Part shown: positions 15,927-18,695 of the stretch, piece by piece | Layout: every line of letters begins with the position of its first letter | Numbering within the stretch: the stretch's first letter is position 1 | From: Alphaproteobacteria bacterium | GTDB lineage: Bacteria > Pseudomonadota > Alphaproteobacteria > JAEULC01 | DNA: 43,145 bases | Assembly: GCA_023150455.1 (NCBI GenBank) | Contig: JAKLKW010000015.1 | Location: forward strand, 1 to 43,145 | Reading direction: 5' to 3' | Notes under the pieces: generated by a model | Told to the model about the DNA's origin: nothing | The model's database searches: none | What the model saw: the letters and a program-made list of their open reading frames with translations, nothing else | Translations under genes and position numbers: made by a program

Positions 15927-16925
15927 TCACGGCTTGAGAAAGCCGACGATCTCCTCGACCTGGGCGACGATCGGATCGGCGATCGCCTGGGCGCGCTCGG
16001 CGCCGTCGCGCAGGATGGCGTCGACATGGTCCGGGTCCTTCATCAGGCGCTGCATCTCCGCGCCGATCGGCCCCAGGACGGACACGGCCAGGTCCGACAG
16101 CTCGGCCTTGAACTTCGAGAACTGCGCCCCGGCGTAGTGCACCAGCACGTCGCCGCGCGTCTTGTCGGACAGCGCGGCGTAGATGCCGACCAGGTTGTCG
16201 GCCTCGGGGCGCTTCTCCAGCTCGGCGACCGACTCCGGCAGCGGGTGCGGGTCGGTCTTGGCCTTGCGGATCTTGAGCGCGATCGTGTCGGCCGTGTCGG
16301 TCAGGTTGATGCGGCTGTAGTCCGACGGGTCGGACTTGCTCATCTTCTTCGAGCCGTCGCGCAGCGACATCACGCGCGTCGCCTCGCCCTTGATGATCGG
16401 CTCGATCAGCGGAAAGAACTCGACGCCGAAGTCGTGGTTGAACTTCTGCGCGATGTCGCGCGCCAGCTCCAGGTGCTGCTTCTGGTCCTCGCCGACCGGC
16501 ACGTGCGTCGCCTTGTAGGCCAGGATGTCGGCCGCCATGAGGCTGGGATAGACGTAGAGGCCGACCGAGGCGTTCTCGCGGTCCTTGCCGGCCTTCTCCT
16601 TGAACTGCGTCATGCGGTTGAGCCAGCCCAGCCGCGCCACGCAGTTGAAGATCCAGGCGAGCTGCGCATGCGCACGCACGCGGCTCTGGTTGAAGATGAT
16701 GTGCTTCTTCGCGTCGATGCCCGACGCGATATAGGCGGACGCGACCTCGCGCGTCGACCGCCGGAGCTCCGCCGGCTCCTGCCACTGGGTGATCGCGTGC
16801 ATGTCGACCATGCAGAAGATGCAGTCGTAGCTCGACTGCAGCTGCACCCAGTTGCGGATGGCGCCGAGATAGTTGCCGAGATGCAGGTTGCCGGTGGGCT
16901 GGATGCCCGAGAAGATGCGGTTCAT
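15927..16925 (-). CDS. trpS: Tryptophanyl-tRNA synthetase
   Basis: This 332-residue class Ic synthetase charges tRNA-Trp in the cytoplasm. It shows the HIGH-like motif in [15 protein letters not shown] (residues 8-22) and KMSKS in [11 protein letters not shown], with VDMHAIT and [15 protein letters not shown] between them. The ATG at 16925 gives [12 protein letters not shown], the normal family start; an upstream in-frame codon would add an unconserved extension. It lies in the order glnD-murJ-trpS on one strand, but a repeat-bearing gap of 198 bp separates it from murJ. Confidence 0.97.
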
Positions 16926-16994: not shown

Positions 16995-17114
16995 GCGCCA
17001 GGCGGCCGCTGATCCGGCCGCCGACTAGAATGAGGGCGCGCGGATCGACGCGCGCCAGGCGGCCGCTGATCCGGCCGCCGACTAGAATGAGGGCGCGCGG
17101 ATCGACGCGCGCCG
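16995..17114. repeat. Two tandem copies of a 57-bp palindromic repeat (plus a 6-bp start of a third)
   Basis: Bases 16995-17051 are repeated exactly at 17052-17108. Each unit, read on the minus strand, contains GGCGGCCG-GATCAG-CGGCCGCC, an 8-bp stem with a 6-base loop, and begins with a GC-rich GCGCG...CGCGCGC half-palindrome. The unit is 19 codons long and stays open in one minus-strand frame ([19 protein letters not shown]). A diverged copy in the opposite orientation lies at 41863-41926, so it is a dispersed element. It fills the trpS-murJ gap. Confidence 0.9.
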
Positions 17115-17123
17115 GGGCGACGC

Positions 17124-18695
17124 CTATTTCATGGCGGGGACCGGGCTTGCGCCCTTGCGCGAGAGGGCCTGGCGCAGCTCGGAGGGCCGGGCGGCGCCGA
17201 GCGCGAGGCATGCCCCGCCATAGACCGCGAGGCCGAGCGACACCAGCAGCACCAGCGCCGTGGCGCGCACCAGGCCGCCGCCGGCGAACAGGCCGGCGAG
17301 GGCCCACTCGCCCACGAGCAGCGCCGCCGTCATCGCCAGCGCGGCGAGAAGGATCAGCGCGGCGCGGCGCCGGAGGCGCCGGTCGGGATCGAGGTGCCCG
17401 CGCCGCCACAGGATGACGGCGAGCGCGCCGGCGTTGATCCAGGACGACACGGCGGTCGCCGCCGCGATGCCGACATGCGCGAGCGGGATCATCAGCGTCG
17501 CCGCCAGGGTGACGTTCGCGAGCATCGCCGCGGCGCCGACCTTCACCGGCGTCGCCGTGTCCTCGCGCGCGAAGAAGCCCGGCGACAGCGCCTTGACCAG
17601 CACATAGGCGGGCAGGCCGGCGGCGAAGGCCATGAGCGTGGCCGCGGTCGCCGCCGCGTCCGCCGGGCCGAACGCGCCGCGCTGGAACAGGACCGAGATG
17701 ATCGGGCCGGGGACCACGATCAGCGCGGCGGCGGCCGGCACCGTCAGCAGCAGCGCGAACTCGATCGCGCGGTTCTGGTTCGCGCGCGCCGCGTCGAGGT
17801 TCCCGGCGCTGAGCTGGCGCGACAGGATCGGCAGCAGCGCCACGCCGACCGCTACGCCGACCACGCCGAGCGGCAGCTGGTTCACGCGGTCGGCGTAGTA
17901 GAGATACGAGATCGCGCCCTTCGGCAGCAGCGACGCCAGCACCGTGCCGATCCACAGGTTGAGCTGCACCACGCTGGCGCCGAAGATGCCGGGCAGCATC
18001 AGCGCGAACAGCCGGCGGATGTCCGGCGACAGGTGCGGCCGGGGCAGGCGCGGCAGCATGCGGGCGCGCCCGGCGTCCTGCGCCAGCCAGAGGAACTGCG
18101 CCACGCCGGCCACGGCGACGGCCCAGGCCAGCGCGTGGCCCGCCGTCGTCGTCCAGTGCACCGGGCCCAGAAGGGCGAGGATCATGATGATGTTGAGCAG
18201 GATGGGCGCGGCCGACGCCACGGCGAAGCGGTCGACGGCGTTCAACACCGAGCCCAGCATCGAGGTCAGCGCCATGAAGAGAAGATAAGGGAAGCAGATG
18301 CGCGTGAAGACGACCGCGAGCGCGAAGCGCTCGGGCTCGTCGGCGAAGCCGGGCGCGATCGCGACCATGAGCCAGGGCATCGCGAGCTCGACCGCGACCG
18401 TGAACGGGATCAGCACGGAAAGCAGCACCGCGAGCGCACGGCCGGCGAAGACGCGCGCGGCCTCGGCCCCGTGCGCCTGCAGCGTGCCGGCGAACAGCGG
18501 CACGAAGGCGGCGTTGAACGCGCCCTCCGCGAACAGGCGGCGGAACAGGTTGGGGAACTGGAAGGCGACGAAGAACGCGTCGGCCATCCCGCCCGCGCCC
18601 AGAAGCGCCGCCATCAGCACGTCGCGCGCGAAGCCCAGCACGCGGCTGATCATGGTCATGCTGCCGATGGTCGCGATGCCGCGGAACAGGGACAT
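17124..18695 (-). CDS. murJ: Lipid II flippase MurJ (MviN)
   Basis: This 523-residue polytopic membrane protein of the MOP exporter superfamily, with about 14 helices, flips lipid II across the inner membrane for peptidoglycan synthesis. The N-terminus MSLFRGIATIGSMTMISRVLGFARD is followed by the conserved GMADAFFVAFQFPNLFRRLFAEGAFNAAFVP region (basic FRRLFAEGA loop). LYYADRVNQLPLGVVGVAVG and LFQRGAFGPADA follow in later helices. It is close to the usual 510-525 residues. It is downstream of glnD, as in many alphaproteobacteria, but a toxin-antitoxin pair lies between them. Confidence 0.97.
   Translation of the reverse strand: MSLFRGIATIGSMTMISRVLGFARDVLMAALLGAGGMADAFFVAFQFPNLFRRLFAEGAFNAAFVPLFAGTLQAHGAEAARVFAGRALAVLLSVLIPFTVAVELAMPWLMVAIAPGFADEPERFALAVVFTRICFPYLLFMALTSMLGSVLNAVDRFAVASAAPILLNIIMILALLGPVHWTTTAGHALAWAVAVAGVAQFLWLAQDAGRARMLPRLPRPHLSPDIRRLFALMLPGIFGASVVQLNLWIGTVLASLLPKGAISYLYYADRVNQLPLGVVGVAVGVALLPILSRQLSAGNLDAARANQNRAIEFALLLTVPAAAALIVVPGPIISVLFQRGAFGPADAAATAATLMAFAAGLPAYVLVKALSPGFFAREDTATPVKVGAAAMLANVTLAATLMIPLAHVGIAAATAVSSWINAGALAVILWRRGHLDPDRRLRRRAALILLAALAMTAALLVGEWALAGLFAGGGLVRATALVLLVSLGLAVYGGACLALGAARPSELRQALSRKGASPVPAMK

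Follow-up and report, generated by a model that had tools for sequence, protein, structure and literature searches.

A probably mobile 57-nucleotide palindromic repeat occurs in intergenic DNA and, in frame, within conserved proteins of an alphaproteobacterial genus

A family of 57-nucleotide palindromic repeats is present in a draft genome (G000; 5.86 Mb, 279 contigs, 90% complete) of an uncultured member of the Rhodospirillales whose genome, of 5.9 Mb, is GC-rich. The unit is dispersed through this genome, lies in frame inside conserved proteins at sites that are empty in relatives, changes its stems in a compensatory manner, and grows locally into tandem arrays. It is very probably a short non-autonomous mobile palindromic repeat that becomes protein-coding when inserted in frame.

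Results

The window, meaning the whole stretch of 43,145 nucleotides that was analysed, contains two 57-nt units in tandem that are 100% identical (Table 1) and are directly followed by a third unit of which only the initial 6 nt are present. The stop codon of murJ is situated 10 nt upstream of the array, and the start of trpS about 70 nt downstream. By chance alone, the core of the unit would be expected 0.00 times in the window, and the murJ–trpS spacer is element-free in the congeners G001, G002, and G003. Sequence comparison upholds the original prediction of two identical 57-bp tandem copies at this position. The same prediction gave the unit an 8-bp-stem hairpin, which is correct in stem length, but each unit has two hairpins rather than one. 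On the minus strand, each element of the window consists of hairpin H2, a 12-nt linker, and hairpin H1. Both hairpins fold as drawn with DNA parameters, with z values of -4.2 to -6.1 against shuffled sequences, and they beat all 200 shuffles. The minus-strand frame reads open as had been stated, but because the array sits between murJ and trpS, this frame is part of neither gene and is intergenic rather than coding here.

Table 1. Features of the window and copies of the element inside proteins
Feature	Genome	Positions in window	Strand	Remark
Tandem unit 1, 57 nt	G000	16995-17051	-	Model-defined element 17001-17056
Tandem unit 2, identical to unit 1	G000	17052-17108	-	Model-defined element 17058-17113
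Hairpin H1, GGCGGCCG-GATCAG-CGGCCGCC	G000	First element 17001-17022; second 17058-17079	-	
Linker CTCATTCTAGTC	G000	First element 17023-17034; second 17080-17091	-	Family consensus NNNCATTTGAGTC
Hairpin H2, GGCGCGCG-TCGATC-CGCGCGCC	G000	First element 17035-17056; second 17092-17113	-	
murJ (lipid II flippase)	G000	17124-18695	-	Upstream neighbour
trpS (tryptophanyl-tRNA synthetase)	G000	15927-16925	-	Downstream neighbour
GNAT acetyltransferase gene	G000	41672-42195	+	Interrupted by the copy at 41862-41919
Single in-protein copy, GNAT acetyltransferase	G000	41862-41919	+	64 bits; in frame; encodes 21 residues; element-free orthologue in congener
In-protein copy, short-chain dehydrogenase (SDR)	G000			Element-free orthologue in congener
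In-protein copy, fructosamine kinase	G000			Between HGDLWPGN and DPA motif; element-free orthologue in congener
In-protein copy, fatty acid desaturase	G000			Element-free orthologue in congener
In-protein copy, PPDK_N-domain enzyme	G000			Element-free orthologue in congener
In-protein copy, NAD-glutamate dehydrogenase	G002			Element-free orthologue in congener
In-protein copy, HolB	G002			Element-free orthologue; flank also varies, least exact case
In-protein copy, gamma-glutamyltransferase	G003			Two tandem units of 54 nt; element-free orthologue

A BLAST search of G000 with the 120-bp array as query gave 51 matches, and a covariance model built from 26 copies gave at least 150. Among the matches listed, 113 are full-length copies with a score of at least 60 bits, and these occur both between genes and inside proteins. 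The 135 matches retained fall at 103 sites, of which 84 carry a single unit and 19 carry two to four; about 80 sites have a copy that reaches 60 bits. Neighbouring units of the same array share a mean identity of 95%, against 82% for units at different sites, which indicates that the arrays grew locally after insertion. As is expected with repeats, some contigs break off within or at a copy (C264:8-64, C92:1-57, and the end of C95 in G000; C147:1-115 in G002), so that the counts given are probably underestimates. An origin as chance palindromes of GC-rich DNA was ruled out, as the pattern gave 121 matches and the reversed pattern none. An isolated hairpin with a different stem, GCCGGCCG-ATGATC-CGGCCGGC, is found at G000:C136:4888-4909 and hints at further subfamilies.

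The family is present in three of the four draft genomes that make up the genus sample (G000, G002, and G003), whereas no member was found in G001 (78% complete). With stricter filters, no other genome in samples of 385 from the class and 399 from the phylum yielded a member, and an exact-pattern scan of named genomes gave no match. The family appears to be confined to the genus. Plasmid and phage collections held nothing relevant, and spread by such vehicles was rejected as an explanation, the only match being one of 32 nt in a Microbacterium plasmid gene that was taken as chance. In G002, which has 17 model matches, three in-frame open copies (L073, L074, and L077) lie within about 2 kb at C125:12590-14659, two of them in one gene.

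Eight separate in-frame copies are situated inside conserved proteins, and for each of them a congener has an orthologue that lacks the stretch (Table 1). This count excludes a weak in-frame model match, of 49 bits, in an MFS gene (C17). The relatives used share about 75% protein identity. Where it could be read, the net insert per unit is 54, 57, or 60 nt, and the surviving inserts consist of 18–20 residues rich in Ala, Asp, Pro, and Arg; a predicted peptide spanning one insert is LLHGDLWPGNVLAAADPAAK. The Pfam domains of the short-chain dehydrogenase, fructosamine kinase, desaturase, and NAD-glutamate dehydrogenase continue through the insert, and one insert adjoins a catalytic segment. On sequence comparison, the empty sites in the relatives show gain or loss of the element, and because the tested congeners are without the insert, we infer gain. 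With element-free counterparts in congeners for the murJ–trpS site and for all eight protein sites, the family is confined neither to the window nor to intergenic DNA, in agreement with the predicted small non-autonomous element that inserts in coding sequence.

The related copy that had been noticed 25 kb away inside a gene is the one in the acetyltransferase gene. A 5-nt tandem duplication, TGTGC TGTGC, at 41832-41841, about 20 nt upstream of this element, shifts the frame, so that the first part of the GNAT gene is in another frame. The duplication is absent in G001 and G003. The frameshifted gene may be a pseudogene or reflect an assembly error.

All eight in-protein copies use the frame xxDPxA, and the same frame is read in the other in-frame copies, outside the eight compared with orthologues. 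In the commoner orientation the xLIR frame is open as often as xxDPxA (94% against 95%), and the third frame is closed by a TGA in the loop. Under an even choice, use of a single frame by about twelve copies would occur about once in 4,000. The exclusive use of xxDPxA, although xLIR is open as often, is suggestive of selection on the encoded peptide.

The general plan of the unit is two inverted hairpins with stems of 7–8 bp around an A+T-richer linker of 12–13 nt, and the loops NTGATC and GATCAN are kept. In the congeners, the linker and both loops are still recognisable; the stems differ in sequence yet pair (e.g. GCCGGGCG, CGCGGCCG, and CGCGGACG). Across 18 copies from three species, 98.4% of the stem cells are paired, and there are 29 two-sided stem changes, compared with 6.8 in shuffles, and no one-sided changes. 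The stems therefore change by compensatory substitution. Selection on RNA pairing would favour G-U wobbles. In the G000 stems, both G-U wobbles (9) and A-C mismatches (10) are rare, and about equally so, which points to a constraint at the level of DNA, a modest argument given the small numbers. The GATC core of the loops TGATC and GATCA is self-complementary, and loop-loop kissing between them was considered. A GANTC (CcrM) site is present in the linker of only 44 of the 113 copies.

C(T/C)A is over-represented in the left flank and T(A/G)G in the right one, giving the termini CYA|...|TRG, with C at the first end position in 72%. TA stands exactly at the left end of 27 of 80 sites and at the right end of 16, against a background of 1%. 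This enrichment could reflect a CTAG-like target, a TA duplication, or a terminal tag. No clean target-site duplication was found, and the in-protein sites are likewise without a clear one. The ends CYAGGCG...CGCCTRG and the enriched TA, together with two 22-nt hairpins that repeat each other imperfectly in inverted orientation, could be read as a miniature element (MITE) of a classic TA-targeting DDE insertion sequence, the hairpins being its terminal inverted repeats; TA at the termini is usual in bacterial MITEs (PMC2229807). However, TA occurs on both sides at only 7 of the 80 sites, nearly every hairpin copy among the matches listed in G000 belongs to a complete pair, and no long element bounded by both ends is found among those matches. 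This origin is doubtful.

Copies tend to follow genes: 57 of the 77 gene 3' ends that face a copy are within 30 nt of it, convergent sites outnumber divergent ones (17 versus 8), and some copies supply the stop codon of the neighbouring gene. Both the preference for gene 3' ends and stop codons provided by the element are known of REPs (PMC3733652). The placement, and the position of the murJ–trpS copy inside a probable operon, would also suit an RNA element that functions at mRNA 3' ends as a stabiliser or attenuator and is not a selfish repeat but kept at many operons by selection. Yet neither a T-tract terminator nor an Rfam match was found, the wobble and mismatch counts and the lack of one-sided changes across species give no sign of selection on RNA pairing, and in-protein copies and empty orthologous sites are not expected of such an element. 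We regard this explanation as very unlikely.

Another candidate is a REP or BIME whose mover would be a RAYT-type transposase, an HUH enzyme of the IS200/IS605 group; a RAYT link had also been suggested at the outset. Hairpins paired in inverted orientation, copies adjoining gene 3' ends, and TAG at the element ends giving neighbours their stop codons, as in GTAG REPs (PMC3733652), agree with it, and four Y1_Tnp genes are present in G000. Against it, the GTRG tag is absent from the element ends, and no element is found in the stretches compared around any of the five Y1_Tnp genes found in the genus, all from draft genomes. In G002 (94% complete) no Y1_Tnp gene was found, although the family is present. 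The rival as a whole is distinctly improbable, and RAYT is unlikely to be the mover.

Discussion

The preferred reading is a mobile repeat that depends on functions supplied elsewhere. The unit has spread to about 80 sites of G000 and to a number of sites in two congeners, in most cases just behind a gene and in some cases within one. With the usual length of 57 nt and the open xxDPxA frame, some insertions survive inside otherwise conserved proteins; those that break a protein were presumably removed by selection. Once inserted, units multiply locally in tandem, as between murJ and trpS. The movement itself may be due to an enzyme supplied in trans that probably acts on the DNA hairpins; no mobilising enzyme was identified for the family in the draft genomes of G000 and its congeners.

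In behaviour, the nearest known repeats are the Rickettsia palindromic elements (RPEs) (PMC2229807, PMC10969869). The family shares with these and with the Wolbachia WPEs a small palindromic unit, occurrence in intergenic DNA as well as in frame within conserved proteins, alphaproteobacterial hosts, and the lack of a known dedicated transposase. The likeness to RPEs in the original prediction holds for behaviour but does not extend to membership. RPEs are mostly 105–150 bp in size (PMC2229807) and form one long stem, whereas the present unit has 57 nt and two separate 8-bp hairpins; RPE-4 and RPE-6 are CGTC-tagged, whereas here the tag is lacking, the ends are CYA/TRG, and the loops carry a conserved GATC.

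The family shares inverted hairpin pairs, compensatory stem variants, a preference for gene 3' ends, and TAG ends with GTAG and CGTC REPs and BIMEs. Intragenic REP copies, which are known in several species (PMC3733652), likewise encode peptides, of 20–30 residues. GTAG REPs, however, have an unpaired GTAG (GTRG) at one hairpin end, a motif absent here, and a RAYT gene flanked by copies, and no such gene was found in the genomes of the genus. CGTC REPs, also without a known transposase, are defined by a CGTC motif, stems starting with AT pairs, and a loop of 4–5 nt (PMC3733652), in contrast to the G+C stems and 6-nt loop (NTGATC) found here without that motif. Unlike REPs and BIMEs, the family forms direct tandem arrays of the whole hairpin pair. 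PARCELs, too, are units of palindromic DNA that are translated as tandem protein repeats, but they encode a 25-residue amphipathic domain of membrane or surface proteins in many clades (PMC2996958) and are not inserts into household enzymes.

Since size, fold, and tag differ from those of RPEs, the family appears to be a separate and undescribed one that works like RPEs and intragenic REPs. The Caulobacter and Brucella CIR repeats, which we take to be longer than the 57-nt unit, are similar by description, being alphaproteobacterial, with halves that fold independently, TA termini, and a GANTC in the linker, a site that only a minority of the present copies have. No description of the family was found in the open literature, which is no proof that none exists. 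Tentatively, it might stand next to the GTAG and CGTC superfamilies as a third class of tagged palindromic repeats, with CYAG ends and GATC loops, in which a putative moving enzyme would recognise the loop and fold rather than the stem sequence and insertion in proteins would be permitted in a single frame.

Protein-invading palindromic repeats are thus not peculiar to reduced intracellular genomes such as those of Rickettsia, as an uncultured lineage with a large genome has its own family, with eight insertions set against element-free orthologues. These eight cases provide a clean set for studying movement without a known transposase and the use of a single frame, and they also suit the question of how enzymes tolerate inserts of 19 residues.

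A different insert, of 13 residues (about GEEIARRARAAGT), is present in a gamma-glutamyltransferase of G000 (L160, C279:8888-9433). It is situated at the point where the gamma-glutamyltransferase of G003 has its two tandem elements, and it may be either a decayed copy or the mark of a hot spot.
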